Translations under genes and position numbers: made by a program
The notes under the pieces: model-generated
What the model saw: only the letters and a program-made list of their open reading frames with translations
Told to the model about the DNA's origin: nothing
The model's database searches: none
Shown here: positions 1,706-52,706 of the stretch, one piece after another
How positions within the stretch are numbered: the first letter of the stretch is position 1
Layout of the letters: the number at the start of each line of letters is the position of its first letter
From: Amyelois transitella
Taxonomy: Eukaryota; Arthropoda; Insecta; Lepidoptera; Pyralidae
NCBI RefSeq assembly: GCF_032362555.1
Contig: NC_083519.1
Span: forward strand, 3,117,501-3,181,500
Length of the DNA stretch: 64,000 nucleotides
Reading direction: 5' to 3'

Positions 1706-1708
1706 TAC

Positions 1709-1916
1709 CATTCGTACGTATGGGTTATCGCCCAAACACGTCTGACATAATATCGGGAAGTCCTGCAAAGACAAATAATGATTAGTTAGTTTTATGGTAT
1801 TTCAAATACATGAATAGGTACATATATAAAAATGTTACTTCTGAATCTTTATGATTACTTACAGAATCTTCCCAATTTTGTCGATTGTAGGTGTTCGTAG
1901 TCTTCGAAACTGCCAT
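1709..1916 (-). CDS. RBM22: RBM22 copy 0, exons 1 and 2 only
   Basis: Exon 1 is at 1863-1916 ([18 protein letters not shown]) and exon 2 at 1709-1762 ([18 protein letters not shown]), identical to the other copies. Intron 2 keeps only its first three bases (GTA, 1708-1706) before the LTR of the retrotransposon. The LTR end happens to supply TGT, so the donor still reads GTATGT. The remaining five exons would lie left of the retroelement, outside the window. The copy is therefore either truncated or an intact gene with a large insertion in intron 2; the window cannot decide. Confidence 0.9.
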
Positions 1917-2106
1917 CTCAGATAATATAACACCAATATCAGCACCACAGTTAAAGGTGAAAAATATTAAATGATCAACAAATAAACAATGTAGGCACCA
2001 CGTAAGTACGACGACTGACTGAAGCCGAATGACTGACGTGGATCGTGGACAGTGGACTGACTGACGTGACTCAAACGCAGTGAAGTGAACGATTGAACGT
2101 TACAAC

Positions 2107-2689
2107 ATCGATATTTCAACACGTGAAACATCGATTAGTCGACGACACTCGATATTTATCGATTTCCGACGATCATCGATGTAATATGAATATATTATAC
2201 ATATAAATTCATATAAATTCTAGTATTCAATGACCAATGTGTTGAAAGAATCAAAGAGTCAGCATGTTCGAAAAGTGCAAAGAGTTTTATAAATCAGCAG
2301 TAGATTGTTTGGTAACATTATCTTATTTTACTTTAAGTAAATACCTACATGTATAAATGTATAAATATTAATATACATCGTAACATCGATGATACGGGCA
2401 CATACAGTTTTTTTTGTCCCGGACACCTAATCTAAATCGTAATGTCGATTGACAAAAAAAAAATGAAGTACCTAGTTAGATTTTTTTATGTGTTCCCCCC
2501 GAAAAAAAATTCAATGATTTAAATGAATGAATGATAAACAATTTTTATGGTTGTTTTATTGATTGCTTACGCCGCAGAACACCTTGGATGACGTTCGCAA
2601 TAACATCAAATCAAATGTCGCATGACATCGATATTATGACTTCGATAATCATCGCGTGTCGATGTTTGGCTATCGATGCCATCATCGAT
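2107..2689. promoter_or_regulatory. Cluster of eight ATCGAT sites upstream of RBM22 (repeated in every unit)
   Basis: ATCGAT occurs at 2107, 2130, 2158, 2175, 2395, 2627, 2672 and 2684, eight times in 583 bp, where chance would give well under one. The flanks make TATCGAT and ATCGATA forms, which resemble the Drosophila DREF site (TATCGATA) and the BEAF-32 core (CGATA), both typical of housekeeping promoters and domain boundaries. The same cluster recurs in each unit about 4.38 kb on, and in copy 10, where one site has changed. Function is inferred from motif likeness only. Confidence 0.5.
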
Positions 2690-2844
2690 GTTTTTGCAAC
2701 ACCGATCACCCCTACGTGCACAGACAATGATAATAATAATATTGTAATGTCAGGGAACGCGGTGTTGCCAACTGCTGCTCTGCATTGCCGTACCACCCAC
2801 ACACATTTGTCAGGTAGAAACTCTGATTGCTGACTCCGTAGGTA

Positions 2845-4028: not shown

Positions 4029-6295
4029 TTAACACTGTGTTCGAAGCGCGTTCGCGTGTGCGTGGGCACCAAGCCGGCTGGGGTCCTGGCTGGGGTAGTG
4101 GTGCCCCGCCGGCGCCGGGGGCGGTGCGCCGGGTCCCATCGGCGGTCCGACCCACGCCGGCCAACCCGGGCCTCCATAATGGTGAAGGTTGAAAAAGTCG
4201 TTCGTACGATTTGGAGGTGGCTGCATCTGTAATATAACAAAATTATTAATTTTCTTTATCATGTAAAATGACTGCTGGCGGGCGATGGTCCATACACATG
4301 TATTGCATAGTTGCAAGTAGAAATGTTACATCACAAGTGAAGGTACACAGCAAACGGCCAAAAAAATTTTGCTTATATTACTTAGTTGGTACGTACGAAT
4401 TGTACTCCCAATTCAGAAATTCCAAAACGTATGGAAGTAATACATACCTGAGGTGGGAATGAATGCAAGAATGCTGGCGGTGGAGGCAATGTGCCAGGAA
4501 GCCCAGGCACTGGCTCCAACCTGGGAGCCATATCATTATGCTCATTTGCACCTTGTCGACCTGTAAATTAAAATATTGTTGTCAGTTTCGAAATCATACT
4601 AGTGTTAACAATGATAGATGCAAAAATTATTTCATGTTCCTTAATGAGTAAGGCATCACGCATTCCATCCAGTCCACTCAAGATGTTATCCCTCACAGTA
4701 AGAGAAGAGAGAGAAAAAGAGTCCCTTTTGTTACAAATAAATAATGAAACGTTGTGTTTTACCTTGCGATTTTCCCCACTTGATGGTAAGCCTCTTCTCT
4801 CCGATCACGAGCCTGTTGAACGTCTTCTCTGCTGCATGTTCCGCTGCACTCCTCGTTGTGTATTGAACGAAGGCACATTGAGCTCGAGACACCAGAGTTA
4901 CGGATCTAGAAAAAAACAACAAATTCTGATTGAACATCATGTGATCTCTGTTTTGGTATTAATGAGCTTAATGAAGAAACTTATTAAAGGGGGAGCGCAC
5001 CCAAGATCAGGCCGATACCATCAATTTGTGACAGCTACTGTACTGAGTGGAGTCTGCCTGTGTCAAATTTAATCCTATATCCACAAGAAACCATGATATA
5101 AACGTACAATTAACATGTTTGCCATTATCATAATTTGAAAAGAAGCATTTACCTGATTTCTCCATATTGATAGAAATGGCCCCTCAGTTCCTCTTCGTTG
5201 ATGTTGTCCGGAAGGTTGCCCACATACAGTGTTGTGACCGTGTTGTCTTCAGGTGGAAGTAGTGCCGGCATGGCAGCCGCTCGACGCATCAACTTCTCGG
5301 CTACAGGGTCATTTACGCCATAATATCTGTTTTTGAAAAAAGATTTAAATTAGTGACTCGTACACAAAAAACAACTGATAAACAAGGTATTCCTTTGTAA
5401 AGAGTAATCTTAAAAATAAGCACAAATAGATGGTTATACTTGCCTGTCCTTGATGTTCTGGTCGGCCAATGGGTCATCAGGGTCAGTGGGCTTCTCGTGG
5501 CGATATGGACATTCTTCTCCACGACGACATTCTCCTTTCACCCAGAAAGAGCAAACATGTGGTCTATTTCTCTTATAATATGGAGCTGTACGAGCCAAAC
5601 GTGACAACAGATCCGAAGCACCCTTCGATTTCAATGCAGAGTTGCTTGGCTGACTTGCGTCACACTTTGACATCTGACTGTCCAGATTCTGTATGTAATA
5701 CTCCTTATTGACTTCGTTTCGTGGTAGATCATCTTGAATTTTGAGAGCAGCGTCTCTAACTTGAATCGGAAGCCCATATTCAAGGTCCAAAAGGCATGTT
5801 TGGCACACATTCTTCAATTTGGAACAGGTCTGGCAGATTTCCGTTTTCTTGAAGCGCATGCGGGATCCAGGGCACCAACGGAATACAGTGAAAGGACGTA
5901 CACATATTTTACACTCCTTTCCATGTTTTTCCTTGGTCTGAAACGAAAAAGAAGGTGTTAATGCATGTTATATTATTTTATCACTATAAGTATAATGTGA
6001 CAAAAATATGTGTATCAGGTATGTACATATATACCTACATATAAGTAGGTATTAAATTAAATAAACAGAAATAAAATGATTACATACCATTCGTACGTAT
6101 GGGTTATCGCCCAAACACGTCTGACATAATATCGGGAAGTCCTGCAAAGACAAATAATGATTAGTTAGTTTTATGGTATTTCAAATACATGAATAGGTAC
6201 ATATATAAAAATGTTACTTCTGAATCTTTATGATTACTTACAGAATCTTCCCAATTTTGTCGATTGTAGGTGTTCGTAGTCTTCGAAACTGCCAT
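4029..6295 (-). CDS. RBM22: RBM22 copy 1, pre-mRNA-splicing factor
   Basis: Spliceosome protein of the Prp19-related group (yeast Cwc2) that contacts U6 snRNA and the intron in the catalytic core; nuclear. Exons in transcript order: 6242-6295, 6088-6141, 5444-5937, 5153-5326, 4763-4905, 4448-4560, 4029-4226. Together they give 1230 nt, 409 aa, against about 420 in human RBM22. Visible parts: the cysteine-rich N-terminal region; a CCCH zinc finger with C165, C173, C179 and H183; an RRM with RNP2 LYVGNL (234-239) and RNP1 RAQCAFVQY (266-274); and a Pro/Gly-rich tail with the conserved [13 protein letters not shown] block. Start chosen because [18 protein letters not shown] matches the family N-terminus. 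Intron 3 (5443-5327) uses a GC donor (AG|GCAAGT); the other introns are GT-AG. Introns are 100-247 nt. Confidence 0.96.
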
Positions 6296-8406
6296 CTCAG
6301 ATAATATAACACCAATATCAGCACCACAGTTAAAGGTGAAAAATATTAAATGATCAACAAATAAACAATGTAGGCACCACGTAAGTACGACGACTGACTG
6401 AAGCCGAATGACTGACGTGGATCGTGGACAGTGGACTGACTGACGTGACTCAAACGCAGTGAAGTGAACGATTGAACGTTACAACATCGATATTTCAACA
6501 CGTGAAACATCGATTAGTCGACGACACTCGATATTTATCGATTTCCGACGATCATCGATGTAATATGAATATATTATACATATAAATTCATATAAATTCT
6601 AGTATTCAATGACCAATGTGTTGAAAGAATCAAAGAGTCAGCATGTTCGAAAAGTGCAAAGAGTTTTATAAATCAGCAGTAGATTGTTTGGTAACATTAT
6701 CTTATTTTACTTTAAGTAAATACCTACATGTATAAATGTATAAATATTAATATACATCGTAACATCGATGATACGGGCACATACAGTTTTTTTTGTCCCG
6801 GACACCTAATCTAAATCGTAATGTCGATTGACAAAAAAAAAATGAAGTACCTAGTTAGATTTTTTTATGTGTTCCCCCCGAAAAAAAATTCAATGATTTA
6901 AATGAATGAATGATAAACAATTTTTATGGTTGTTTTATTGATTGCTTACGCCGCAGAACACCTTGGATGACGTTCGCAATAACATCAAATCAAATGTCGC
7001 ATGACATCGATATTATGACTTCGATAATCATCGCGTGTCGATGTTTGGCTATCGATGCCATCATCGATGTTTTTGCAACACCGATCACCCCTACGTGCAC
7101 AGACAATGATAATAATAATATTGTAATGTCAGGGAACGCGGTGTTGCCAACTGCTGCTCTGCATTGCCGTACCACCCACACACATTTGTCAGGTAGAAAC
7201 TCTGATTGCTGACTCCGTAGGTATCTTTTTTCCGTGGAGATCGTAGAAGGCGACCAAGGGGGACGGTTAATAAACTTGAGGTTCTTCTTGTAGGCGATGA
7301 TGGGCTAGCGACCTGTCACTATTTCAATCTCAAGACTGTACCTACGCTCTGTCTACTCCGCAAGGGATAAAGACGTGATTATATGTATGTAACTAGGTAC
7401 GCGCACGTTTTATTATTATTATCGTGTGTGGTTCCCGGCACACCACCAGGCAGTTCAGTCTTCTCGAGACTGTCGATATTTTAAATCATATCCACATGTT
7501 AATTATGTAGGTACTTACATATGTATATGCAAAGGTGTAATGAGTCATTACTACACACTTCTATGATCTCTCTACTTGTCCAAGTACCTACGGTATAGTC
7601 GCCGGGCGGGGGCACTACTTTCTCGATTGACGATTGTTACCTAATATCGTACTGATCAGGTGACCAACGTGTGAACGCTGTTTGCGTAACGCGCCGAGAT
7701 GACTCAGATGTGTGCTCAAAAAAACGACAACGTTTCGAGAAATGGCCCCCTACACATCGGTGGCCCAACGTGTACAGGGCCCTTTAGACACATTTCATAA
7801 AATGTTGATAGATTGTCGGATTTAAATTACCCCAAAAAATTTCTAGAAGTAGATAAATACTTACCTATATATAACAGTTGGTTACACACGTTACAATAAA
7901 ATGTATGTAAATTTTATATATCATATTCCTATTTATTACGTGTCGAATGGACGGAATACTGAGTGTGACCAGCGACACTACCCCATAGGATCAGAAGAAT
8001 CCAAACTTACAATTGACATTTACAATTTGCTTCTCGTGCAAGAAGCAGGCCGCCAATCATATACAAACTATTTTTAAGTGGTACGTACCTACGTACGTAC
8101 ACCAAGTATGAATCGTACGTAAAGAACTAAGACGAGTGGAGATTTAAAAGGAACAAAACAATTTAAACGTTAAACTTGTATATTATTCACATACGATACT
8201 AATGTATCATTACAAAATATACCTTATTAATTCTATTTTCCTATTTATACACACGCATGCTAAGTGTTTAACATTTCTTACAGTCTGGTCCTATTTGGAC
8301 CTGTGCCTAATCCTACTTGATTATTATCGTACAACTTCTTATTTGCAAACAGCTTTTATCTACAATCAACAATTCTTAAACATGATCGCAAAGTTTACAA
8401 TTACAA
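6296..8406 (-). other. Spacer between RBM22 copies 1 and 2
   Basis: Same layout as the first spacer, with the unit junction at 7140/7141. Variant state: short form at about 6620 (belongs to copy 1), C at the GACTCAG site (about 7705), five-T run near 8070. No gene seen. Confidence 0.8.
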
Positions 8407-10672
8407 TTAACACTGTGTTCGAAGCGCGTTCGCGTGTGCGTGGGCACCAAGCCGGCTGGGGTCCTGGCTGGGGTAGTGGTGCCCCGCCGGCGCCGGGGGC
8501 GGTGCGCCGGGTCCCATCGGCGGTCCGACCCACGCCGGCCAACCCGGGCCTCCATAATGGTGAAGGTTGAAAAAGTCGTTCGTACGATTTGGAGGTGGCT
8601 GCATCTGTAATATAACAAAATTATTAATTTTCTTTATCATGTAAAATGACTGCTGGCGGGCGATGGTCCATACACATGTATTGCATAGTTGCAAGTAGAA
8701 ATGTTACATCACAAGTGAAGGTACACAGCAAACGGCCAAAAAATTTTGCTTATATTACTTAGTTGGTACGTACGAATTGTACTCCCAATTCAGAAATTCC
8801 AAAACGTATGGAAGTAATACATACCTGAGGTGGGAATGAATGCAAGAATGCTGGCGGTGGAGGCAATGTGCCAGGAAGCCCAGGCACTGGCTCCAACCTG
8901 GGAGCCATATCATTATGCTCATTTGCACCTTGTCGACCTGTAAATTAAAATATTGTTGTCAGTTTCGAAATCATACTAGTGTTAACAATGATAGATGCAA
9001 AAATTATTTCATGTTCCTTAATGAGTAAGGCATCACGCATTCCATCCAGTCCACTCAAGATGTTATCCCTCACAGTAAGAGAAGAGAGAGAAAAAGAGTC
9101 CCTTTTGTTACAAATAAATAATGAAACGTTGTGTTTTACCTTGCGATTTTCCCCACTTGATGGTAAGCCTCTTCTCTCCGATCACGAGCCTGTTGAACGT
9201 CTTCTCTGCTGCATGTTCCGCTGCACTCCTCGTTGTGTATTGAACGAAGGCACATTGAGCTCGAGACACCAGAGTTACGGATCTAGAAAAAAACAACAAA
9301 TTCTGATTGAACATCATGTGATCTCTGTTTTGGTATTAATGAGCTTAATGAAGAAACTTATTAAAGGGGGAGCGCACCCAAGATCAGGCCGATACCATCA
9401 ATTTGTGACAGCTACTGTACTGAGTGGAGTCTGCCTGTGTCAAATTTAATCCTATATCCACAAGAAACCATGATATAAACGTACAATTAACATGTTTGCC
9501 ATTATCATAATTTGAAAAGAAGCATTTACCTGATTTCTCCATATTGATAGAAATGGCCCCTCAGTTCCTCTTCGTTGATGTTGTCCGGAAGGTTGCCCAC
9601 ATACAGTGTTGTGACCGTGTTGTCTTCAGGTGGAAGTAGTGCCGGCATGGCAGCCGCTCGACGCATCAACTTCTCGGCTACAGGGTCATTTACGCCATAA
9701 TATCTGTTTTTGAAAAAAGATTTAAATTAGTGACTCGTACACAAAAAACAACTGATAAACAAGGTATTCCTTTGTAAAGAGTAATCTTAAAAATAAGCAC
9801 AAATAGATGGTTATACTTGCCTGTCCTTGATGTTCTGGTCGGCCAATGGGTCATCAGGGTCAGTGGGCTTCTCGTGGCGATATGGACATTCTTCTCCACG
9901 ACGACATTCTCCTTTCACCCAGAAAGAGCAAACATGTGGTCTATTTCTCTTATAATATGGAGCTGTACGAGCCAAACGTGACAACAGATCCGAAGCACCC
10001 TTCGATTTCAATGCAGAGTTGCTTGGCTGACTTGCGTCACACTTTGACATCTGACTGTCCAGATTCTGTATGTAATACTCCTTATTGACTTCGTTTCGTG
10101 GTAGATCATCTTGAATTTTGAGAGCAGCGTCTCTAACTTGAATCGGAAGCCCATATTCAAGGTCCAAAAGGCATGTTTGGCACACATTCTTCAATTTGGA
10201 ACAGGTCTGGCAGATTTCCGTTTTCTTGAAGCGCATGCGGGATCCAGGGCACCAACGGAATACAGTGAAAGGACGTACACATATTTTACACTCCTTTCCA
10301 TGTTTTTCCTTGGTCTGAAACGAAAAAGAAGGTGTTAATGCATGTTATATTATTTTATCACTATAAGTATAATGTGACAAAAATATGTGTATCAGGTATG
10401 TACATATATACCTACATATAAGTAGGTATTAAATTAAATAAACAGAAATAAAATGATTACATACCATTCGTACGTATGGGTTATCGCCCAAACACGTCTG
10501 ACATAATATCGGGAAGTCCTGCAAAGACAAATAATGATTAGTTAGTTTTATGGTATTTCAAATACATGAATAGGTACATATATAAAAATGTTACTTCTGA
10601 ATCTTTATGATTACTTACAGAATCTTCCCAATTTTGTCGATTGTAGGTGTTCGTAGTCTTCGAAACTGCCAT
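8407..10672 (-). CDS. RBM22: RBM22 copy 2
   Basis: Exons in transcript order: 10619-10672, 10465-10518, 9821-10314, 9530-9703, 9140-9282, 8825-8937, 8407-8604. Protein appears identical to copy 1 (409 aa) with the zinc finger, RRM and GC-AG intron 3 all kept. Differs from copy 1 by a one-base shorter A-run in intron 6 (near 8740) and carries the 12-bp longer form of the promoter indel (near 10998). No stop, frameshift or splice-site change seen. Confidence 0.95.
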
Positions 10673-12800: not shown

Positions 12801-15067
12801 TTAACACTGTGTTCGAAGCGCGTTCGCGTGTGCGTGGGCACCAAGCCGGCTGGGGTCCTGGCTGGGGTAGTGGTGCCCCGCCGGCGCCGGGGGCGGTGCG
12901 CCGGGTCCCATCGGCGGTCCGACCCACGCCGGCCAACCCGGGCCTCCATAATGGTGAAGGTTGAAAAAGTCGTTCGTACGATTTGGAGGTGGCTGCATCT
13001 GTAATATAACAAAATTATTAATTTTCTTTATCATGTAAAATGACTGCTGGCGGGCGATGGTCCATACACATGTATTGCATAGTTGCAAGTAGAAATGTTA
13101 CATCACAAGTGAAGGTACACAGCAAACGGCCAAAAAAATTTTGCTTATATTACTTAGTTGGTACGTACGAATTGTACTCCCAATTCAGAAATTCCAAAAC
13201 GTATGGAAGTAATACATACCTGAGGTGGGAATGAATGCAAGAATGCTGGCGGTGGAGGCAATGTGCCAGGAAGCCCAGGCACTGGCTCCAACCTGGGAGC
13301 CATATCATTATGCTCATTTGCACCTTGTCGACCTGTAAATTAAAATATTGTTGTCAGTTTCGAAATCATACTAGTGTTAACAATGATAGATGCAAAAATT
13401 ATTTCATGTTCCTTAATGAGTAAGGCATCACGCATTCCATCCAGTCCACTCAAGATGTTATCCCTCACAGTAAGAGAAGAGAGAGAAAAAGAGTCCCTTT
13501 TGTTACAAATAAATAATGAAACGTTGTGTTTTACCTTGCGATTTTCCCCACTTGATGGTAAGCCTCTTCTCTCCGATCACGAGCCTGTTGAACGTCTTCT
13601 CTGCTGCATGTTCCGCTGCACTCCTCGTTGTGTATTGAACGAAGGCACATTGAGCTCGAGACACCAGAGTTACGGATCTAGAAAAAAACAACAAATTCTG
13701 ATTGAACATCATGTGATCTCTGTTTTGGTATTAATGAGCTTAATGAAGAAACTTATTAAAGGGGGAGCGCACCCAAGATCAGGCCGATACCATCAATTTG
13801 TGACAGCTACTGTACTGAGTGGAGTCTGCCTGTGTCAAATTTAATCCTATATCCACAAGAAACCATGATATAAACGTACAATTAACATGTTTGCCATTAT
13901 CATAATTTGAAAAGAAGCATTTACCTGATTTCTCCATATTGATAGAAATGGCCCCTCAGTTCCTCTTCGTTGATGTTGTCCGGAAGGTTGCCCACATACA
14001 GTGTTGTGACCGTGTTGTCTTCAGGTGGAAGTAGTGCCGGCATGGCAGCCGCTCGACGCATCAACTTCTCGGCTACAGGGTCATTTACGCCATAATATCT
14101 GTTTTTGAAAAAAGATTTAAATTAGTGACTCGTACACAAAAAACAACTGATAAACAAGGTATTCCTTTGTAAAGAGTAATCTTAAAAATAAGCACAAATA
14201 GATGGTTATACTTGCCTGTCCTTGATGTTCTGGTCGGCCAATGGGTCATCAGGGTCAGTGGGCTTCTCGTGGCGATATGGACATTCTTCTCCACGACGAC
14301 ATTCTCCTTTCACCCAGAAAGAGCAAACATGTGGTCTATTTCTCTTATAATATGGAGCTGTACGAGCCAAACGTGACAACAGATCCGAAGCACCCTTCGA
14401 TTTCAATGCAGAGTTGCTTGGCTGACTTGCGTCACACTTTGACATCTGACTGTCCAGATTCTGTATGTAATACTCCTTATTGACTTCGTTTCGTGGTAGA
14501 TCATCTTGAATTTTGAGAGCAGCGTCTCTAACTTGAATCGGAAGCCCATATTCAAGGTCCAAAAGGCATGTTTGGCACACATTCTTCAATTTGGAACAGG
14601 TCTGGCAGATTTCCGTTTTCTTGAAGCGCATGCGGGATCCAGGGCACCAACGGAATACAGTGAAAGGACGTACACATATTTTACACTCCTTTCCATGTTT
14701 TTCCTTGGTCTGAAACGAAAAAGAAGGTGTTAATGCATGTTATATTATTTTATCACTATAAGTATAATGTGACAAAAATATGTGTATCAGGTATGTACAT
14801 ATATACCTACATATAAGTAGGTATTAAATTAAATAAACAGAAATAAAATGATTACATACCATTCGTACGTATGGGTTATCGCCCAAACACGTCTGACATA
14901 ATATCGGGAAGTCCTGCAAAGACAAATAATGATTAGTTAGTTTTATGGTATTTCAAATACATGAATAGGTACATATATAAAAATGTTACTTCTGAATCTT
15001 TATGATTACTTACAGAATCTTCCCAATTTTGTCGATTGTAGGTGTTCGTAGTCTTCGAAACTGCCAT
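12801..15067 (-). CDS. RBM22: RBM22 copy 3
   Basis: Exons in transcript order: 15014-15067, 14860-14913, 14216-14709, 13925-14098, 13535-13677, 13220-13332, 12801-12998. Protein appears identical to copy 1. Intron 6 has the longer A-run as in copy 1, while the promoter has the long indel form as in copy 2, so this unit is a mosaic of the two types. All coding exons and the GC donor of intron 3 are intact. Confidence 0.95.
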
Positions 15068-17190: not shown

Positions 17191-19460
17191 TTAACACTGT
17201 GTTCGAAGCGCGTTCGCGTGTGCGTGGGCACCAAGCCGGCTGGGGTCCTGGCTGGGGTAGTGGTGCCCCGCCGGCGCCGGGGGCGGTGCGCCGGGTCCCA
17301 TCGGCGGTCCGACCCACGCCGGCCAACCCGGGCCTCCATAATGGTGAAGGTTGAAAAAGTCGTTCGTACGATTTGGAGGTGGCTGCATCTGTAATATAAC
17401 AAAATTATTAATTTTCTTTATCATGTAAAATGACTGCTGGCGGGCGATGGTCCATACACATGTATTGCATAGTTGCAAGTAGAAATGTTACATCACAAGT
17501 GAAGGTACACAGCAAACGGCCAAAAAATTTTGCTTATATTACTTAGTTGGTACGTACGAATTGTACTCCCAATTCAGAAATTCCAAAACGTATGGAAGTA
17601 ATACATACCTGAGGTGGGAATGAATGCAAGAATGCTGGCGGTGGAGGCAATGTGCCAGGAAGCCCAGGCACTGGCTCCAACCTGGGAGCCATATCATTAT
17701 GCTCATTTGCACCTTGTCGACCTGTAAATTAAAATATTGTTGTCAGTTTCGAAATCATACTAGTGTTAACAATGATAGATGCAAAAATTATTTCATGTTC
17801 CTTAATGAGTAAGGCATCACGCATTCCATCCAGTCCACTCAAGATGTTATCCCTCACAGTAAGAGAAGAGAGAGAAAAAGAGTCCCTTTTGTTACAAATA
17901 AATAATGAAACGTTGTGTTTTACCTTGCGATTTTCCCCACTTGATGGTAAGCCTCTTCTCTCCGATCACGAGCCTGTTGAACGTCTTCTCTGCTGCATGT
18001 TCCGCTGCACTCCTCGTTGTGTATTGAACGAAGGCACATTGAGCTCGAGACACCAGAGTTACGGATCTAGAAAAAAACAACAAATTCTGATTGAACATCA
18101 TGTGATCTCTGTTTTGGTATTAATGAGCTTAATGAAGAAACTTATTAAAGGGGGAGCGCACCCAAGATCAGGCCGATACCATCAATTTGTGACAGCTACT
18201 GTACTGAGTGGAGTCTGCCTGTGTCAAATTTAATCCTATATCCACAAGAAACCATGATATAAACGTACAATTAACATGTTTGCCATTATCATAATTTGAA
18301 AAGAAGCATTTACCTGATTTCTCCATATTGATAGAAATGGCCCCTCAGTTCCTCTTCGTTGATGTTGTCCGGAAGGTTGCCCACATACAGTGTTGTGACC
18401 GTGTTGTCTTCAGGTGGAAGTAGTGCCGGCATGGCAGCCGCTCGACGCATCAACTTCTCGGCTACAGGGTCATTTACGCCATAATATCTGTTTTTGAAAA
18501 AAGATTTAAATTAGTGACTCGTACACAAAAAACAACTGATAAACAAGGTATTCCTTTGTAAAGAGTAATCTTAAAAATAAGCACAAATAGATGGTTATAC
18601 TTGCCTGTCCTTGATGTTCTGGTCGGCCAATGGGTCATCAGGGTCAGTGGGCTTCTCGTGGCGATATGGACATTCTTCTCCACGACGACATTCTCCTTTC
18701 ACCCAGAAAGAGCAAACATGTGGTCTATTTCTCTTATAATATGGAGCTGTACGAGCCAAACGTGACAACAGATCCGAAGCACCCTTCGATTTCAATGCAG
18801 AGTTGCTTGGCTGACTTGCGTCACACTTTGACATCTGACTGTCCAGATTCTGTATGTAATACTCCTTATTGACTTCGTTTCGTGGTAGATCATCTTGAAT
18901 TTTGAGAGCAGCGTCTCTAACTTGAATCGGAAGCCCATATTCAAGGTCCAAAAGGCATGTTTGGCACACATTCTTCAATTTGGAACAGGTCTGGCAGATT
19001 TCCGTTTTCTTGAAGCGCATGCGGGATCCAGGGCACCAACGGAATACAGTGAAAGGACGTACACATATTTTACACTCCTTTCCATGTTTTTCCTTGGTCT
19101 GAAACGAAAAAGAAGGTGTTAATGCATGTTATATTATTTTATCACTATAAGTATAATGTGACAAAAATATGTGTATCAGGTATGTACATATATACCTACA
19201 TATAAGTAGGTATTAAATTAAATAAACAGAAATAAAATGATTACATACCATTCGTACGTATGGGTTATCGCCCAAACACGTCTGACATAATATCGGGAAG
19301 TCCTGCAAAGACAAATAATGATTAGTTAGTTTTATGGTACCTATTTCAAATACATGAATAGGTACATATATAAAAATGTTACTTCTGAATCTTTATGATT
19401 ACTTACAGAATCTTCCCAATTTTGTCGATTGTAGGTGTTCGTAGTCTTCGAAACTGCCAT
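17191..19460 (-). CDS. RBM22: RBM22 copy 4
   Basis: Exons in transcript order: 19407-19460, 19249-19302, 18605-19098, 18314-18487, 17924-18066, 17609-17721, 17191-17388. Protein appears identical to copy 1. It has a private 4-bp insertion in intron 1 (near 19339), away from splice sites. Shorter A-run in intron 6. Confidence 0.95.
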
Positions 19461-34717: not shown

Positions 34718-36983
34718 TTAACACTGTGTTCGAAGCGCGTTCGCGTGTGCGTGGGCACCAAGCCGGCTGGGGTCCTGGCTGGGGTAGTGGTGCCCCGCCG
34801 GCGCCGGGGGCGGTGCGCCGGGTCCCATCGGCGGTCCGACCCACGCCGGCCAACCCGGGCCTCCATAATGGTGAAGGTTGAAAAAGTCGTTCGTACGATT
34901 TGGAGGTGGCTGCATCTGTAATATAACAAAATTATTAATTTTCTTTATCATGTAAAATGACTGCTGGCGGGCGATGGTCCATACACATGTATTGCATAGT
35001 TGCAAGTAGAAATGTTACATCACAAGTGAAGGTACACAGCAAACGGCCAAAAAATTTTGCTTATATTACTTAGTTGGTACGTACGAATTGTACTCCCAAT
35101 TCAGAAATTCCAAAACGTATGGAAGTAATACATACCTGAGGTGGGAATGAATGCAAGAATGCTGGCGGTGGAGGCAATGTGCCAGGAAGCCCAGGCACTG
35201 GCTCCAACCTGGGAGCCATATCATTATGCTCATTTGCACCTTGTCGACCTGTAAATTAAAATATTGTTGTCAGTTTCGAAATCATACTAGTGTTAACAAT
35301 GATAGATGCAAAAATTATTTCATGTTCCTTAATGAGTAAGGCATCACGCATTCCATCCAGTCCACTCAAGATGTTATCCCTCACAGTAAGAGAAGAGAGA
35401 GAAAAAGAGTCCCTTTTGTTACAAATAAATAATGAAACGTTGTGTTTTACCTTGCGATTTTCCCCACTTGATGGTAAGCCTCTTCTCTCCGATCACGAGC
35501 CTGTTGAACGTCTTCTCTGCTGCATGTTCCGCTGCACTCCTCGTTGTGTATTGAACGAAGGCACATTGAGCTCGAGACACCAGAGTTACGGATCTAGAAA
35601 AAAACAACAAATTCTGATTGAACATCATGTGATCTCTGTTTTGGTATTAATGAGCTTAATGAAGAAACTTATTAAAGGGGGAGCGCACCCAAGATCAGGC
35701 CGATACCATCAATTTGTGACAGCTACTGTACTGAGTGGAGTCTGCCTGTGTCAAATTTAATCCTATATCCACAAGAAACCATGATATAAACGTACAATTA
35801 ACATGTTTGCCATTATCATAATTTGAAAAGAAGCATTTACCTGATTTCTCCATATTGATAGAAATGGCCCCTCAGTTCCTCTTCGTTGATGTTGTCCGGA
35901 AGGTTGCCCACATACAGTGTTGTGACCGTGTTGTCTTCAGGTGGAAGTAGTGCCGGCATGGCAGCCGCTCGACGCATCAACTTCTCGGCTACAGGGTCAT
36001 TTACGCCATAATATCTGTTTTTGAAAAAAGATTTAAATTAGTGACTCGTACACAAAAAACAACTGATAAACAAGGTATTCCTTTGTAAAGAGTAATCTTA
36101 AAAATAAGCACAAATAGATGGTTATACTTGCCTGTCCTTGATGTTCTGGTCGGCCAATGGGTCATCAGGGTCAGTGGGCTTCTCGTGGCGATATGGACAT
36201 TCTTCTCCACGACGACATTCTCCTTTCACCCAGAAAGAGCAAACATGTGGTCTATTTCTCTTATAATATGGAGCTGTACGAGCCAAACGTGACAACAGAT
36301 CCGAAGCACCCTTCGATTTCAATGCAGAGTTGCTTGGCTGACTTGCGTCACACTTTGACATCTGACTGTCCAGATTCTGTATGTAATACTCCTTATTGAC
36401 TTCGTTTCGTGGTAGATCATCTTGAATTTTGAGAGCAGCGTCTCTAACTTGAATCGGAAGCCCATATTCAAGGTCCAAAAGGCATGTTTGGCACACATTC
36501 TTCAATTTGGAACAGGTCTGGCAGATTTCCGTTTTCTTGAAGCGCATGCGGGATCCAGGGCACCAACGGAATACAGTGAAAGGACGTACACATATTTTAC
36601 ACTCCTTTCCATGTTTTTCCTTGGTCTGAAACGAAAAAGAAGGTGTTAATGCATGTTATATTATTTTATCACTATAAGTATAATGTGACAAAAATATGTG
36701 TATCAGGTATGTACATATATACCTACATATAAGTAGGTATTAAATTAAATAAACAGAAATAAAATGATTACATACCATTCGTACGTATGGGTTATCGCCC
36801 AAACACGTCTGACATAATATCGGGAAGTCCTGCAAAGACAAATAATGATTAGTTAGTTTTATGGTATTTCAAATACATGAATAGGTACATATATAAAAAT
36901 GTTACTTCTGAATCTTTATGATTACTTACAGAATCTTCCCAATTTTGTCGATTGTAGGTGTTCGTAGTCTTCGAAACTGCCAT
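34718..36983 (-). CDS. RBM22: RBM22 copy 8
   Basis: Exons in transcript order: 36930-36983, 36776-36829, 36132-36625, 35841-36014, 35451-35593, 35136-35248, 34718-34915. Protein appears identical to copy 1. Unit 8 matches unit 2 in length (4388 bp) and in all markers I followed, including the long promoter indel and nine-A run. Confidence 0.95.
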
Positions 36984-39111: not shown

Positions 39112-41377
39112 TTAACACTGTGTTCGAAGCGCGTTCGCGTGTGCGTGGGCACCAAGCCGGCTGGGGTCCTGGCTGGGGTAGTGGTGCCCCGCCGGCGCCG
39201 GGGGCGGTGCGCCGGGTCCCATCGGCGGTCCGACCCACGCCGGCCAACCCGGGCCTCCATAATGGTGAAGGTTGAAAAAGTCGTTCGTACGATTTGGAGG
39301 TGGCTGCATCTGTAATATAACAAAATTATTAATTTTCTTTATCATGTAAAATGACTGCTGGCGGGCGATGGTCCATACACATGTATTGCATAGTTGCAAG
39401 TAGAAATGTTACATCACAAGTGAAGGTACACAGCAAACGGCCAAAAAATTTTGCTTATATTACTTAGTTGGTACGTACGAATTGTACTCCCAATTCAGAA
39501 ATTCCAAAACGTATGGAAGTAATACATACCTGAGGTGGGAATGAATGCAAGAATGCTGGCGGTGGAGGCAATGTGCCAGGAAGCCCAGGCACTGGCTCCA
39601 ACCTGGGAGCCATATCATTATGCTCATTTGCACCTTGTCGACCTGTAAATTAAAATATTGTTGTCAGTTTCGAAATCATACTAGTGTTAACAATGATAGA
39701 TGCAAAAATTATTTCATGTTCCTTAATGAGTAAGGCATCACGCATTCCATCCAGTCCACTCAAGATGTTATCCCTCACAGTAAGAGAAGAGAGAGAAAAA
39801 GAGTCCCTTTTGTTACAAATAAATAATGAAACGTTGTGTTTTACCTTGCGATTTTCCCCACTTGATGGTAAGCCTCTTCTCTCCGATCACGAGCCTGTTG
39901 AACGTCTTCTCTGCTGCATGTTCCGCTGCACTCCTCGTTGTGTATTGAACGAAGGCACATTGAGCTCGAGACACCAGAGTTACGGATCTAGAAAAAAACA
40001 ACAAATTCTGATTGAACATCATGTGATCTCTGTTTTGGTATTAATGAGCTTAATGAAGAAACTTATTAAAGGGGGAGCGCACCCAAGATCAGGCCGATAC
40101 CATCAATTTGTGACAGCTACTGTACTGAGTGGAGTCTGCCTGTGTCAAATTTAATCCTATATCCACAAGAAACCATGATATAAACGTACAATTAACATGT
40201 TTGCCATTATCATAATTTGAAAAGAAGCATTTACCTGATTTCTCCATATTGATAGAAATGGCCCCTCAGTTCCTCTTCGTTGATGTTGTCCGGAAGGTTG
40301 CCCACATACAGTGTTGTGACCGTGTTGTCTTCAGGTGGAAGTAGTGCCGGCATGGCAGCCGCTCGACGCATCAACTTCTCGGCTACAGGGTCATTTACGC
40401 CATAATATCTGTTTTTGAAAAAAGATTTAAATTAGTGACTCGTACACAAAAAACAACTGATAAACAAGGTATTCCTTTGTAAAGAGTAATCTTAAAAATA
40501 AGCACAAATAGATGGTTATACTTGCCTGTCCTTGATGTTCTGGTCGGCCAATGGGTCATCAGGGTCAGTGGGCTTCTCGTGGCGATATGGACATTCTTCT
40601 CCACGACGACATTCTCCTTTCACCCAGAAAGAGCAAACATGTGGTCTATTTCTCTTATAATATGGAGCTGTACGAGCCAAACGTGACAACAGATCCGAAG
40701 CACCCTTCGATTTCAATGCAGAGTTGCTTGGCTGACTTGCGTCACACTTTGACATCTGACTGTCCAGATTCTGTATGTAATACTCCTTATTGACTTCGTT
40801 TCGTGGTAGATCATCTTGAATTTTGAGAGCAGCGTCTCTAACTTGAATCGGAAGCCCATATTCAAGGTCCAAAAGGCATGTTTGGCACACATTCTTCAAT
40901 TTGGAACAGGTCTGGCAGATTTCCGTTTTCTTGAAGCGCATGCGGGATCCAGGGCACCAACGGAATACAGTGAAAGGACGTACACATATTTTACACTCCT
41001 TTCCATGTTTTTCCTTGGTCTGAAACGAAAAAGAAGGTGTTAATGCATGTTATATTATTTTATCACTATAAGTATAATGTGACAAAAATATGTGTATCAG
41101 GTATGTACATATATACCTACATATAAGTAGGTATTAAATTAAATAAACAGAAATAAAATGATTACATACCATTCGTACGTATGGGTTATCGCCCAAACAC
41201 GTCTGACATAATATCGGGAAGTCCTGCAAAGACAAATAATGATTAGTTAGTTTTATGGTATTTCAAATACATGAATAGGTACATATATAAAAATGTTACT
41301 TCTGAATCTTTATGATTACTTACAGAATCTTCCCAATTTTGTCGATTGTAGGTGTTCGTAGTCTTCGAAACTGCCAT
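39112..41377 (-). CDS. RBM22: RBM22 copy 9
   Basis: Exons in transcript order: 41324-41377, 41170-41223, 40526-41019, 40235-40408, 39845-39987, 39530-39642, 39112-39309. Protein appears identical to copy 1. Its downstream spacer looks like unit 3 (TTCAG duplication, T, six-T run), but intron 6 has the shorter A-run and the promoter the short indel, so it is a recombinant unit. Confidence 0.95.
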
Positions 41378-44300
41378 CTCAGATAATATAACACCAATAT
41401 CAGCACCACAGTTAAAGGTGAAAAATATTAAATGATCAACAAATAAACAATGTAGGCACCACGTAAGTACGACGACTGACTGAAGCCGAATGACTGACGT
41501 GGATCGTGGACAGTGGACTGACTGACGTGACTCAAACGCAGTGAAGTGAACGATTGAACGTTACAACATCGATATTTCAACACGTGAAACATCGATTAGT
41601 CGACGACACTCGATATTTATCGATTTCCGACGATCATCGATGTAATATGAATATATTATACATATAAATTCATATAAATTCTAGTATTCAATGACCAATG
41701 TGTTGAAAGAATCAAAGAGTCAGCATGTTCGAAAAGTGCAAAGAGTTTTATAAATCAGCAGTAGATTGTTTGGTAACATTATCTTATTTTACTTTAAGTA
41801 AATACCTACATGTATAAATGTATAAATATTAATATACATCGTAACATCGATGATACGGGCACATACAGTTTTTTTTGTCCCGGACACCTAATCTAAATCG
41901 TAATGTCGATTGACAAAAAAAAATGAAGTACCTAGTTAGATTTTTTTATGTGTTCCCCCCGAAAAAAAATTCAATGATTTAAATGAATGAATGATAAACA
42001 ATTTTTATGGTTGTTTTATTGATTGCTTACGCCGCAGAACACCTTGGATGACGTTCGCAATAACATCAAATCAAATGTCGCATGACATCGATATTATGAC
42101 TTCGATAATCATCGCGTGTCGATGTTTGGCTATCGATGCCATCATCGATGTTTTTGCAACACCGATCACCCCTACGTGCACAGACAATGATAATAATAAT
42201 ATTGTAATGTCAGGGAACGCGGTGTTGCCAACTGCTGCTCTGCATTGCCGTACCACCCACACACATTTGTCAGGTAGAAACTCTGATTGCTGACTCCGTA
42301 GGTATCTTTTTTCCGTGGAGATCGTAGAAGGCGACCAAGGGGGACGGTTAATAAACTTGAGGTTCTTCTTGTAGGCGATGATGGGCTAGCGACCTGTCAC
42401 TATTTCAATCTCAAGACTGTACCTACGCTCTGTCTACTCCGCAAGGGATAAAGACGTGATTATATGTATGTAACTAGGTACGCGCACGTTTTATTATTAT
42501 TATCGTGTGTGGTTCCCGGCACACCACCAGGCAGTTCAGTCTTCTCGAGACTGTCGATATTTTAAATCATATCCACATGTTAATTATGTAGGTACTTACA
42601 TATGTATATGCAAAGGTGTAATGAGTCATTACTACACACTTCTATGATCTCTCTACTTGTCCAAGTACCTACGGTATAGTCGCCGGGCGGGGGCACTACT
42701 TTCTCGATTGACGATTGTTACCTAATATCGTACTGATCAGGTGACCAACGTGTGAACGCTGTTTGCGTAACGCGCCGAGATGACTCAGATGTGTGCTCAA
42801 AAAAACGACAACGTTTCGAGAAATGGCCCCCTACACATCGGTGGCCCAACGTGTACAGGGCCCTTTAGACACATTTCATAAAATGTTGATAGATTGTCGG
42901 ATTTAAATTACCCCAAAAAATTTCTAGAAGTAGATAAATACTTACCTATATATAACAGTTGGTTACACACGTTACAATAAAATGTATGTAAATTCAAATT
43001 CAAATTCAAATTCAAACTTTTATTTGCATAATATGAGTACAACAAGGTCTTAAATATAATGTATAACAGATCTTCATATTTACCCTTTCGGGTGTTGCAA
43101 ACATTTTTATGTATTAGTAGACATACAAACTTATACATAAAGGTACCTACTTAGTATCACATTATAATTTTAAATCTAATTAGAATTGTTTAAACCTAGT
43201 ATTGCACAATTTATATTTATCTGTTAATAGGTGCTTATTTATTATTATTGTAAATATTTATAATGTTCTAATGTTTTCAAGTTTACAATGTAAAACTATT
43301 ATAATCTTACTACCTACTTATTTAAATTAAGGTACTCATCTATAGAATAAAAATTGTTTTGAAGAAGCATAGACTTAATTTTTTTATTAAAGTGAGTTAA
43401 TTTATTTTCATTTTTTATAGAATTTGGTAGTTTATTATAAATTTTTATTCCCATATGAAATGGGCTTTGGTGGAGCATTTTTATTCTTGCAGGTTGAATG
43501 CATAAGTTATTTTTATTTCTTGTGTGATATGTATGTGTATCTTTTATTTGAGTGAATAAATGCTTATTTTTGTGTACAAATTGACATATATCCTGAATGT
43601 AAATTGAAGGTAGTGTTAGTAATTCAAATTTTTTATAATATGGTTTGCAGCTTTCAGTATTTTTTATTTCTGCTAATATTCTAACACATTTTTTCTGTAA
43701 TATAAATACTTCATGAGCGCTACTGCTATTACCCCATAGCATTACCCCATACTTTAGCCAGGAGTAAGCATACGCATAGTAAGCCGATAGTGCAGTTTCA
43801 AGATTTGTGCAATGTTTTATTTGATATAGTGCATATATAAATTTACTTAATTTTGCTTTGACATTTTCTATGTGACTTTTCCAGTTTATATGAGAATCTA
43901 TATGTATACCTAATAAATTAAAAGTATTCACTGTTTCTATATCTGTTTTATTATATTGAATAAGAGAAGTATCTAATGGTGCTTTGTTTACAGATGTAAA
44001 TTGCATTAGCTTTGTCTTTTTGTAATTTATTTCCAGGTTATGATCACTAAGCCATTTTTCAGCTATATTAAGTTTATCTAATACTATTGATTTTATATCT
44101 ATATTACTATTATTATCATGTCCAATCAAAATTGACAGATCATCTGCAAAAAGAATACTAGTTGTATTTTCTTTATCAAAAATTTTTGGCAGGTCATTAA
44201 TATATATTATAAATAGTATACATCCTAATACGCTCCCTTGAGGTATAGCACATGTTAAACTTGTTTCATTAGATTTTATTATTTCTATTGTATTATTGTG

Positions 44301-44959
44301 GTCATTGTAAAACGTTATTTGTACAATTTGTTTTCTATTTTGCAAGTAAGATTGGAACCACTGATATGCTCGTCCACGAACCCCAGATCCATATAATTTG
44401 GACAATAATATTTTATGAGATACTTTATCATAAGCCTTAGTCATATCAAGCAAAAGACCAAAGGCATGTTTCTTCTCGTTAATATGTCGTAAGGCGTTTT
44501 GAATATAATACTGAGTGTGACCAGCGACACTACCCCATAGGATCAGAAGAATCCAAACTTACAATTGACATTTACAATTTGCTTCTCGTGCAAGAAGCAG
44601 GCCGCCAATCATATACAAACTATTTTTTAAGTGGTACGTACCTACGTACGTACACCAAGTATGAATCGTACGTAAAGAACTAAGACGAGTGGAGATTTAA
44701 AAGGAACAAAACAATTTAAACGTTAAACTTGTATATTATTCACATACGATACTAATGTATCATTACAAAATATACCTTATTAATTCTATTTTCCTATTTA
44801 TACACACGCATGCTAAGTGTTTAACATTTCTTACAGTCTGGTCCTATTTGGACCTGTGCCTAATCCTACTTGATTATTATCGTACAACTTCTTATTTGCA
44901 AACAGCTTTTATCTACAATCAACAATTCTTAAACATGATCGCAAAGTTTACAATTACAA
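41378..44959 (-). other. Spacer between RBM22 copies 9 and 10, interrupted by a LINE
   Basis: Unit junction at 42221/42222. Variant state: short indel form (about 41703), C at the GACTCAG site (about 42785), six-T run near 44625. A LINE fragment fills 42995-44506. It replaces 41 bp of the unit, including the candidate AATAAA signal used by the other copies. No other gene seen. Confidence 0.85.
42995..44506 (-). mobile_element. 5'-truncated non-LTR retrotransposon (LINE), copy A, in array unit 10
   Basis: Open frame of 379 codons (44453-43314) of a reverse transcriptase of the Jockey/CR1-like broad group. The frame continues upstream without a stop to the truncation point. Motifs: LLLDMTKAYDKVSH at the start, AIPQGSVLGCILFIIYINDL, then the catalytic FADD block, followed by a thumb/C-terminal region ending before a 3' UTR. 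The tail is a (GAATTT)n hexamer repeat at the left edge. The endonuclease and the first part of RT are missing, as usual for 5' truncation. I see no target-site duplication. Instead 41 bp of the unit are missing at the insertion point. The visible RT has no internal stop, so the insertion is recent. Clade is not certain. Confidence 0.88.
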
Positions 44960-47234
44960 TTAACACTGTGTTCGAAGCGCGTTCGCGTGTGCGTGGGCAC
45001 CAAGCCGGCTGGGGTCCTGGCTGGGGTAGTGGTGCCCCGCCGGCGCCGGGGGCGGTGCGCCGGGTCCCATCGGCGGTCCGACCCACGCCGGCCAACCCGG
45101 GCCTCCATAATGGTGAAGGTTGAAAAAGTCGTTCGTACGATTTGGAGGTGGCTGCATCTGTAATATAACAAAATTATTAATTTTCTTTATCATGTAAAAT
45201 GACTGCTGGCGGGCGATGGTCCATACACATGTATTGCATAGTTGCAAGTAGAAATGTTACATCACAAGTGAAGGTACACAGCAAACGGCCAAAAAAATTT
45301 TGCTTATATTACTTAGTTGGTACGTACGAATTGTACTCCCAATTCAGAAATTCCAAAACGTATGGAAGTAATACATACCTGAGGTGGGAATGAATGCAAG
45401 AATGCTGGCGGTGGAGGCAATGTGCCAGGAAGCCCAGGCACTGGCTCCAACCTCGGAGCCATATCATTATGCTCATTTGCACCTTGTCGACCTGTAAATT
45501 AAAATATTGTTGTCAGTCTCGAAATCATACTAGTGTTAACAATGATAGATGCAAAAATTATTTCATGTTCCTTAATGAGTAAGGCATCACGCATTCCATC
45601 CAGTCCACTCAAGATGTTATCACTCACAGTAAGAGAAGAGAGAGAAAAAAAAAAAATTAGAAAAAGAGTCCCTTTTGTTACAATAATTAATAATGAAACG
45701 TTGTTTTACCTTGCGATTTTCCCCACTTGATGGTAAGCCTCTTCTCTCCGATCACGAGTCTGTTGAACGTCTTCTCTGCTGCATGTTCCGCTGCATTCCT
45801 CGTTGTGTATTGAACGAAGGCACATTGAGCTCGAGACACCAGAGTTACGGATCTAGAAAAAAACAACAAATTCTGATTGAACATCATGTGATCTCTGTTT
45901 TGGTATTAATGAGCTTAATGAAGAAACTTATTAAAGGGGGAGCGCACCCAAGATCAGGCCGATACCATCAATTTGTGACAGCTACTGTACTGAGTGGAGT
46001 CTGCCTGTGTCAAATTTAATCCTATCACAAGAAACCATGATATAAACGTACAATTAACATGTTTGCCATTATCATAATTTGAAAAGATGCATTTACCTGA
46101 TTTCTCCATATTGATAGAAATGGCCCCTCAGTTCCTCTTCGTTGATGTTGTCCGGAAGGTTGCCCACATACAGTGTTGTGACCGTGTTGTCTTCAGGTGG
46201 AAGTAGTGCCGGCATGGCAGCCGCTCGACGCATCAACTTCTCGGCTACAGGGTCATTTACGCCATAATATCTGTTTTTGAAAAAAGATTTAAATTAGTGA
46301 CTCGTACACAAAAAACAACTGATAAACAAGGTATTCCTTTGTAAAGAGTAATCTTAAAAATAAGCACAAATAGATGGTTATACTTGCCTGTCCTTGATGT
46401 TCTGGTCGGCCAATGGGTCATCAGGGTCAGTGGGCTTCTCGTGGCGATATGGACATTCTTCTCCACGACGACATTCTCCTTTCACCCAGAAAGAGCAAAC
46501 ATGTGGTCTATTTCTCTTATAATATGGAGCTGTACGAGCCAAACGTGACAACAGATCCGAAGCACCCTTCGATTTCAATGCAGAGTTGCTTGGCTGACTT
46601 GCGTCACACTTTGACATCTGACTGTCCAGATTCTGTATGTAATACTCCTTATTGACTTCGTTTCGTGGTAGATCATCTTGAATTTTGAGAGCAGCGTCTC
46701 TAACTTGAATCGGAAGCCCATATTCAAGGTCCAAAAGGCATGTTTGGCACACATTCTTCAATTTGGAACAGGTCTGGCAGATTTCCGTTTTCTTGAAGCG
46801 CATGCGGGATCCAGGGCACCAACGGAATACAGTGAAAGGACGTACACATATTTTACACTCCTTTCCATGTTTTTCCTTGGTCTGAAACGAAAAAGAAGGT
46901 GTTAATGCATGTTATATTATTTTATCACTATAAGTATAATGTGACAAAAATATGTGTATCAGGTATGTACATATATACCTACATATAAGTAGGTATTAAA
47001 TAAACAGAAATAAAATGATTACATACCATTCGTACGTATGGGTTATCGCCCAAACACGTCTGACATAATATCGGGAAGTCCTGCAAAGACAAATAATGGT
47101 TAGTTAGTTTTATGGTATTTCAAATACATGAATAGGTACATATATAAAAATGTTACTTCTGAATCTTTATGATTACTTACAGAATCTTCCCAATTTTGTC
47201 GATTGTAGGTGTTCGTAGTCTTCGAAACTGCCAT
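44960..47234 (-). CDS. RBM22: RBM22 copy 10, edge copy (S278N)
   Basis: Exons in transcript order: 47181-47234, 47027-47080, 46388-46881, 46097-46270, 45710-45852, 45379-45491, 44960-45157; 409 aa. This is the last copy next to unique sequence. It differs most from the rest: one amino-acid change in the RRM just after RNP1 (TTRN instead of TTRS, residue 278), synonymous changes in exons 5 and 6, an insertion of about 16 bp in an A-rich part of intron 5, and small deletions in introns 2 and 4. The zinc finger, RRM motifs, all splice sites and the GC donor are intact. Its 3' flank carries the LINE, so its poly(A) site must differ from the other copies. It is probably the least homogenised copy and may be closest to the ancestral gene. 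Confidence 0.95.
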
Positions 47235-48129
47235 CTCAGATAATATAACACCAATATCAGCACCACAGTTAAAGGTGAAAAATATTAAATGATCAACAAA
47301 TAAACAATGTAGGCACCACGTAAGTACGACGACTGACTGAAGCCGAATGACTGACGTGGATCGTGGACAGTGGACTGACTGACGTGACTCAAACGCAGTG
47401 AAGTGAACGATTGAACGTTACAACATCGATATTTCAACACGTGAAACATCGATTAGTCGACGACACTCGATATTTATCGATTTCCGACGATCATCTATGT
47501 AATATGAATATATTATACATAAATTCATATAAATTCTAGTATTCAATGACCAATGTGTTGGAGAAAGCATTAAAAGAATCAAATTAAATCATCAATGTAA
47601 CATCGATGACACGGGCATATACAGTTTTTTTTCTCCCGGACACCTAATCTAAATCGTAATGTCGATTGACAAAAAAAAATGAAGTACCTAAGTGGTTAGA
47701 TTATTTTATGTGTTCCCCCCGAAAAAAAATTCAATGATTTAAATGAATGAATTATAAACAATTTTTATGGTTGTTTTATTGATTGCTGAAGCCGCAGAAG
47801 ACCTTGGATGACGTTCGCAAAAAAATCAAATCAAATGTCGCATGACATCGATATGATGACTTTGATAATCATCGCGTGTCGATGTTTGGCTATCGATGCC
47901 ATCATCGATGTTTTTGCAACACCGATCACCTCTACGTGCACAGACAATAATAATAATATTGTAAAGTCAGGGAACGCGAAAAAATTTGTTGTCCTTTACC
48001 TTTTCTGCTTTCAATAATTCAGTTGGTTACTACAATTTTTTGTTTAGGTTTTTTAATTGAATGTTGAATTCATTGTTTGTTGAATTCTTGTAGGAACCTG
48101 TTTTGTAATATTGTAATTAAATACAAATT
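47235..48129. promoter_or_regulatory. Shared 5' region between RBM22 copy 10 and WDR61
   Basis: The two genes are head-to-head with 895 bp between start codons. The left 744 bp (to 47978) are the array's upstream segment with most of the ATCGAT sites kept. About 240 bp of unit sequence is missing near 47583 compared with other units. The last 151 bp (47979-48129) are unique and precede the WDR61 start. No TATA box is obvious for either gene. A bidirectional housekeeping promoter is a reasonable inference. Confidence 0.6.
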
Positions 48130-52638: not shown

Positions 52639-52706
52639 GGCTCATCATAACCCTTCTCCTAACACAGTCGAATAAAAAAACTAATTCGAAATTATGCTAT
52701 ACCTAT

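Follow-up and report, generated by a model that had tools for sequence, protein, structure and literature searches.

The window (the whole stretch of DNA analysed, 64,000 nucleotides) is located on the 10.9-Mb contig C15 of a 327-Mb assembly, and its best named protein matches belong to Lepidoptera. Ten complete RBM22 genes were found in it, all on the minus strand, with spacings of 4377–4395 bp and one of 5857 bp, in agreement with the ten copies of one orientation counted in the preliminary description. The interval given there for the array, 1706–47978, is right as far as the window reaches, but too small as an extent: the row continues leftwards beyond the window start to C15:3084253, and in the assembled sequence 17 head-to-tail RBM22 genes, numbered here from the left, are spread across 81 kb. 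The features of the window are as follows.

1–1702, plus strand: 3′ portion of the LTR retrotransposon that interrupts intron 2 of copy 7, with the 3′ LTR from about 784 and the target duplication ACATA at 1703–1707
1709–1916, minus strand: exons 2 and 1 of copy 7 (exons 3–7 at C15:3111051-3112958, left of the window)
4029–6295, minus strand: copy 8, CDS span, seven exons, 409 aa
8407–10672, minus strand: copy 9, CDS span (exons 10672–10619, 10518–10465, 10314–9821, 9703–9530, 9282–9140, 8937–8825 and 8604–8407)
12801–15067, minus strand: copy 10, CDS span
17191–19460, minus strand: copy 11, CDS span
21583–23848, minus strand: copy 12, CDS span
25961–28227, minus strand: copy 13, CDS span
30340–32606, minus strand: copy 14, CDS span; unit without a variant event relative to copy 8
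34718–36983, minus strand: copy 15, CDS span; unit without a variant event relative to copy 9
39112–41377, minus strand: copy 16, CDS span
42995–44506, minus strand: insertion of ~1.5 kb, confined to copy 17 and lying in its 3′ flank (gap in unit homology from C15:3160494 to 3162007)
44960–47234, minus strand: copy 17, the last on the right, with slight divergence (S278N and two synonymous changes)
47235–47978, minus strand: right-hand end of the array, formed by the 5′ flank of copy 17, whose outer part is diverged from the other copies (94% there)
48131–51945, plus strand: WDR61/SKI8 gene, head-to-head with copy 17; start codon and exons placed by eye, last exon untraced

The repeat unit of 4.38 kb includes the gene and both its 5′ and 3′ flanks. 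All 17 genes have an open frame and intact splice sites, and in every one of them intron 3 has a GC donor instead of GT. The seven exons, proper splice sites and open 409-aa frame previously described for each complete copy were recovered in copies 8–17, as were the nine identical proteins, those of copies 8–16. Across the whole array of copies 2–17, 13 of the 16 proteins are identical, the exceptions being copy 4 (D241E), copy 6 (E245K) and copy 17 (S278N). The fragment at 1709–1916, first taken for a partial copy, belongs to the complete copy 7, which is split by the LTR element. The whole element occupies C15:3113108-3119202 (6095 bp); its LTRs are identical over 920/920 bp, and the 5-bp target duplication ACATA is present on both sides. 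A frame at about 1–780, presumably an integrase, was recognised in it by eye from a motif. The insertion at copy 17, also judged by eye, resembles a truncated non-LTR retrotransposon.

A whole-genome scan with the RBM22 N-terminal domain (PF21369), in which all 21 candidates were scored, gave 17 matches, all within C15:3086530-3164384, and no such domain outside the 17 genes. Unit DNA outside the array, among 38 scored of 4007 candidates, was represented only by matches to the 5′ flank (one place on contig C3) and by a dispersed repeat of the 3′ flank. A weak RRM match on contig C2 was rejected as a second RBM22 locus, its best local match to copy 1 covering 39 residues at 44% identity; we take this protein to resemble SF3B6/p14. 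A scan of viral contigs for capture by a virus gave no encoded relative. To the right of the array, the linkage of RBM22 with WDR61 looks ancestral, because in Eumeta japonica the two genes are listed on contigs of equal size (410,979), which does not directly prove the same contig.

RBM22 is a relative of Cwc2/Ecm2 in the activated spliceosome, and core spliceosome genes are expected to be single and dosage-balanced. The array protein is RBM22-like in containing STL11_N (PF21369, 104.8 bits), the RBM22-type CCCH zinc finger (PF25584, 58.7 bits) and an RRM (PF00076, 48.5 bits), all over the curated cut-offs. The canonical RBM22, however, is encoded by copy 1, the leftmost gene, situated outside the window and 92.4% and 93.3% identical to RBM22 of Anticarsia and Galleria, respectively. 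Copies 2–17 are 95.6% identical to copy 1. Seven RBM22 proteins, six of Lepidoptera and P0006, served as the reference set, the partial Leptidea sinapis protein P0010 being left out. Nine of the 323 columns invariant in this set (at least six proteins present) are changed in the array only, namely S6T, I34V, Y41H, P224L, P265S, P352T, L386H, P405L and Q406R, and none in copy 1 only; because the array copies lack the canonical residues at these positions, the array gene was assigned to a paralogue, RBM22B, and not to the orthologue. RBM22B also departs from RBM22 by a deletion of 4 aa and by 2 aa added at the C-terminus. Accordingly, the view that the single-copy core gene had been amplified was not upheld: what was amplified is a paralogue that has diverged, and the essential canonical RBM22 itself, as far as the assembly represents it, stayed single. 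A window lacking the flanking canonical copy is misleading in this respect.

The nine changes are of unequal rarity among the 120 homologues listed of 2650 matches. All 120 have Tyr, Phe or Trp at position 41, and none has His; Thr at position 6 is found in 59/120 and is not rare, Ser at 265 is found in 17/120, including Leptidea sinapis P0010, and Val at 34 in 17/119. In total, 15 changes at reference-invariant columns were found in the array and six in copy 1; the array does not greatly exceed the fastest reference proteins, with 11 and 12. Six of them (A61S, T244N, L261V, G295E, P340S and P346Q) are common to copy 1 and the array, and therefore the common ancestor of the two was already unusual. 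Relative-rate tests were one-sided but modest (p 0.006–0.09 against the seven reference proteins), and those against three non-lepidopteran proteins were not significant. Between copy 1 and the array there are 17 nonsynonymous and 28 synonymous differences, the latter unpolarised between lineages (dS 0.11, dN/dS 0.16; neutral binomial test for both lineages together, p about 1e-8), and the introns are 12.3% different.

Within the array, copies 2–16 carry 10 SNPs and eight indels in all, with a mean pairwise SNP difference of 0.00044 (0.044%), and no variant events separate copies 8 and 14, or copies 9 and 15, across the whole unit. In a four-gamete test on ten of the 18 events, all four combinations were found in 20 of 45 pairs, and in 7 of 21 pairs after removal of three events that are one-base changes of homopolymer length. 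The 5′ flank of copy 1 contains a sharp exchange breakpoint near C15:3087160, where 27 differences from copy 5 in 100 aligned bases give way to none in a stretch of about 680. The head-to-tail repeats are thus closer to each other than to their sister copy and carry recombinant variants, as in arrays under concerted evolution; the very recent amplification and/or homogenisation suggested earlier is borne out by the low mean difference and the mosaic variants.

An array of such uniformity could be produced by an assembler multiplying one or a few real units, and the absence of whole-unit differences within the pairs 8/14 and 9/15 agrees with this, as does the fact that three of the ten four-gamete events, the homopolymer ones, may be read errors. 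Nevertheless, an artefact is highly improbable: the 18 variant events are combined in mosaics, also without the homopolymer ones; the insertions peculiar to copies 7 and 17 anchor the path; no N is present in the window or in seven further stretches; and both ends of the array pass into non-array sequence on the 10.9-Mb contig. The dS of 0.11 from the array is too large for copy 1 to be explained as an array copy from the other haplotype.

The divergence of copy 1 from the array, set against the 0.044% within the array, points to an older, frame-keeping duplicate recently amplified by unequal exchange. The native RBM22 locus is, with good confidence, one at which an old tandem duplicate, RBM22B, was recently amplified, whereas the canonical copy 1 was kept single. 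The tandem duplication of RBM22 would have taken place at an earlier date (dS about 0.11); copy 1, at the left end, would have remained canonical, while RBM22B would have retained its open frame and all splice sites and evolved faster. Recently, the 4.38-kb RBM22B unit with both flanks would have multiplied to 16 copies, and these would still be undergoing shuffling and homogenisation, through unequal crossing-over and gene conversion among the direct repeats.

The same anatomy is shared by an overlapping explanation that differs on function, in which RBM22B is dispensable, its number drifted upwards by unequal exchange and no copy is functional. Coding SNPs in copies 2–16 (3/10) are at about the CDS share of the unit, close to the neutral expectation, and two of the three are nonsynonymous, so that there is no sign of strong present constraint on single copies; the array gene also evolved faster than copy 1. 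On the other hand, stops or frameshifts are present in none of the 16 copies, whereas a single neutrally evolving lineage, with an assumed divergence share of 0.05, would be expected to gather about 2.8 stops, and the combined dN/dS is 0.16, although constraint on the founder is no proof of constraint now. Such a functionless array is a tenable though less probable explanation. Under the main explanation, RBM22B probably makes a protein; its divergence appears to reflect weaker constraint and not the acquisition of a new role. The high copy number would come mainly from array dynamics, with selection for a larger supply of RBM22B protein a possible but unproven contributor.

Selection for RBM22 dosage, one of the causes named in the preliminary description, stands as a weaker reading, because the canonical gene is single and the amplified one is diverged and not canonical RBM22. 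Amplification of the whole of RBM22 under selection for more of a splicing factor is consistent with the full coding capacity of 16/16 array copies and with the 5′ flank present in each unit; it is quite unlikely, given that the canonical gene occurs once, outside the amplified set, and that the amplified gene is altered at nine reference-invariant sites. Histone units, which carry genes needed in bulk, are likewise homogenised direct repeats, their uniformity being ascribed to exchange between units, while the RBM22B product has no known bulk need. Histone units of D. melanogaster differ by about 0.004, according to PMC12400953.

Tpi is Z-linked in Lepidoptera, and Drosophila Stellate is a diverged duplicate of the casein kinase 2 beta gene with a role in drive. 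A selfish, germline-specific amplification of this kind, in which a diverged housekeeping duplicate is amplified in transmission conflict, was considered. In PMC12400953, Stellate is described as an X-linked, homogenised tandem array that has LTR insertions in its vicinity and an orphan copy apart from it, and RBM22B similarly combines a homogenised tandem array with a separate, orphan-like single copy and an LTR insertion. The mean SNP difference of 0.00044 in RBM22B stands against a median distance of 0.0031 reported for Stellate there, the two measures not being identical. A further difference is that the native gene, copy 1, adjoins the RBM22B array, and the N-terminal domain scan of the assembly revealed no other match that could mark a suppressor locus. 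The sex-chromosome location typical of Stellate was not found either: the array is on C15 and Tpi on contig C31, which speaks against a sex-linked amplification, a reading that was rejected, and makes the RBM22B array probably autosomal. Drive is thus a very improbable explanation.

Among the open-licence PMC papers listed for RBM22 and for lepidopteran splicing factors amplified to many copies, none described an RBM22 array in its title or the opening of its abstract. The locus presents a core spliceosome gene with a diverged, frame-preserving duplicate multiplied about sixteenfold into copies a few bases apart, and such a probably autosomal gene array is a clean system for measuring the rate of growth and homogenisation. 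It is conceivable, though unlikely, that RBM22B acts as a working second form of a protein of the spliceosome's catalytic core, supplied by sixteen genes in some tissue or sex, replacing RBM22 in some spliceosomes and altering splicing. If this reading is true, the locus would represent a specialised insect spliceosome built through gene amplification. In any case it offers a natural experiment on whether the make-up of the spliceosome can differ within one animal.

Repeats of about 4.38 kb with near 100% identity fill the window from 1.7 to 48 kb in an assembly of 327 Mb and 33 contigs. Each repeat contains one minus-strand gene of seven exons, encoding a protein with the STL11_N domain, the RBM22 CCCH finger and the RRM, whose closest relative among the matches listed in a protein search is lepidopteran RBM22. 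The ten complete copies of RBM22 reported here by the preliminary description were borne out: nine encode the same protein, and the tenth carries S278N. The additional 'partial copy' does contain RBM22 exons, but they are exons 1 and 2 of a complete gene, copy 7 (numbered from left to right), split by an LTR element. On C15 (contig NC_083519.1), the window occupies 3117501-3181500; inspection of C15:3060001-3120000 showed that the array extends leftward to C15:3084253. A total of 17 genes are present in the assembly, and seven exons, an open frame and intact splice sites were found in 17/17; the actual gene number may depart from the assembled one. A whole-genome scan for PF21369, with 21/21 candidates scored, gave 17 matches, every one inside the array locus; accordingly, no RBM22 N-terminal domain was found elsewhere in the assembly. 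The donor of intron 3 is GC in all 17 genes (window 9819-9820 in copy 9 and the equivalent site in the others). The 3' flank of the unit includes a dispersed, SINE-like repeat of about 170 bp (window 7223-7391 and the equivalent place in other units) matching many contigs with about 74-96% identity; thus, the unit contains an old mobile-element piece.

Insertions and repeats at the locus (window positions where coordinates are given)
Intron 2 of copy 7: LTR element of 6095 bp splitting the gene, flanked by the target duplication ACATA; its two 920-bp LTRs are identical
42995-44506, minus strand: putative non-LTR retrotransposon, insertion in the 3' flank of copy 17, by eye
52602-53648, plus strand: putative non-LTR retrotransposon in the right flank, long open frame, by eye
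60523-61158, minus strand: open frame with AAPVAKVAYAAP-type repeats and an underlying 48-bp tandem repeat

The leftmost gene, copy 1, is the canonical RBM22: at the conserved positions where it departs from the array copies 2-17, it has the residues of other Lepidoptera. Copies 2-17 encode a diverged paralogue named RBM22B. The RBM22B protein (409 aa, 95.6% identity to copy 1) is characterized by I34V, Y41H, L148S, P224L, P265S, P352T, L386H and C-terminal changes, as well as a 4-aa deletion and a 2-aa extension. The reference set consisted of proteins of six Lepidoptera, Anticarsia, Galleria, Maniola, Bombyx mandarina, Tuta and Eumeta, and a seventh, close protein, P0006; a partial Leptidea protein, P0010, which has Ser at 265, as the array does, was excluded. 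At the 323 columns invariant in this set, nine changes are array-only, none are copy-1-only and six are common to both. For columns with at least five sequences, changes at reference-invariant columns number 15 in the array protein and 6 in copy 1, and 2 to 12 in the reference proteins, each left out in turn. By these counts, the array protein is fast-evolving, though it does not greatly exceed the most rapidly changing of the normal RBM22 proteins. Of the nine array-only changes, S6T and P265S give residues common in other animals (59/120 and 17/120 homologues compared). Position 41, His in the array, is Tyr, Phe or Trp in 120/120 homologues compared and His in 0/120. At residue 295, 120/120 homologues compared have Gly, and copy 1 and the array protein have Glu; this unusual RRM residue was therefore present before the two diverged, in their common ancestor.

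Between copy 1 and the array, dS is 0.11, dN 0.018 and dN/dS 0.16 (core 0.13, C-terminus 0.25), and neutral evolution is rejected for the pair (p ~1e-8). Introns differ by 12.3%, with the exception of intron 3, the least diverged (1/117 differences). With an even split of synonymous changes assumed, the array lineage alone would have accumulated ~12 nonsynonymous and ~14 synonymous changes, still below the neutral expectation (p 0.0005). Tajima-type counts with the seven reference proteins gave 9-12 array-unique and 1-3 copy-1-unique changes (p 0.006-0.09); with three non-lepidopteran proteins, the counts were 4-7 and 1-2, not significant.

On the right side, the array adjoins the gene WDR61/SKI8. 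In Eumeta japonica, RBM22 and WDR61 are each listed on a contig of 410,979 bp, so the array site is probably the ancestral RBM22 locus. To the left, C15:3077780-3078737 is presumably, by eye, a SCAMP gene. Tpi, a Z gene in Lepidoptera, is located on C31 (4/4 matches); the array, being on C15, is therefore probably autosomal. A second, diverged WDR61/SKI8-like gene (window 54507-56756, by eye) follows the first; lepidopteran SKI8-like proteins with 45-49% identity to the first, e.g., of Danaus and Phthorimaea, among the matches listed, may be its relatives. The two non-LTR retrotransposon sequences are apparently the same element, by eye, and the open frame with AAPVAKVAYAAP-type repeats is presumably that of a cuticular protein.

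Copies 2-16 together contain 10 SNPs and 8 indels, with a mean pairwise SNP difference of 0.00044, and zero variant events separate copies 8 and 14 or copies 9 and 15. All four combinations are present in 20/45 event pairs (ten of the 18 events), as exchange between units would produce, and in 7/21 pairs after removal of three one-base homopolymer-run events, which may recur or be read errors. Neighbouring copies differ by a mean of 4.1 events and the most widely separated ones by 8, with an uneven rise in between. In the 5' flank of copy 1, compared with copy 5 with gaps uncounted, 27 differences per 100 aligned bases give way at ~C15:3087160 to 0 over ~680: the canonical gene is joined to array flank by an exchange. 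Copy 17, at the outer end, has retained divergence in the outer part of its 5' flank and carries an insertion of its own. The array is divergent at its edges and uniform in its middle, like arrays maintained by unequal exchange. Medians of unit distances in Drosophila melanogaster, as reported in PMC12400953, are 0.0031 for Stellate and about 0.004 for histone genes; the units here are closer to one another by a factor of about seven to nine, an SNP-only mean being set against median distances.

RBM22 is essential and contacts U6 snRNA and pre-mRNA near the 5' splice site, according to PMC8833553. RBM22B is most likely a duplicate that remained able to encode a protein while under weaker constraint, and whose copies then increased in number through array dynamics; it is possible that extra RBM22B is beneficial. 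The canonical gene has stayed single, which makes amplification for RBM22 dosage as such, one of the possibilities named in the preliminary description, less likely.
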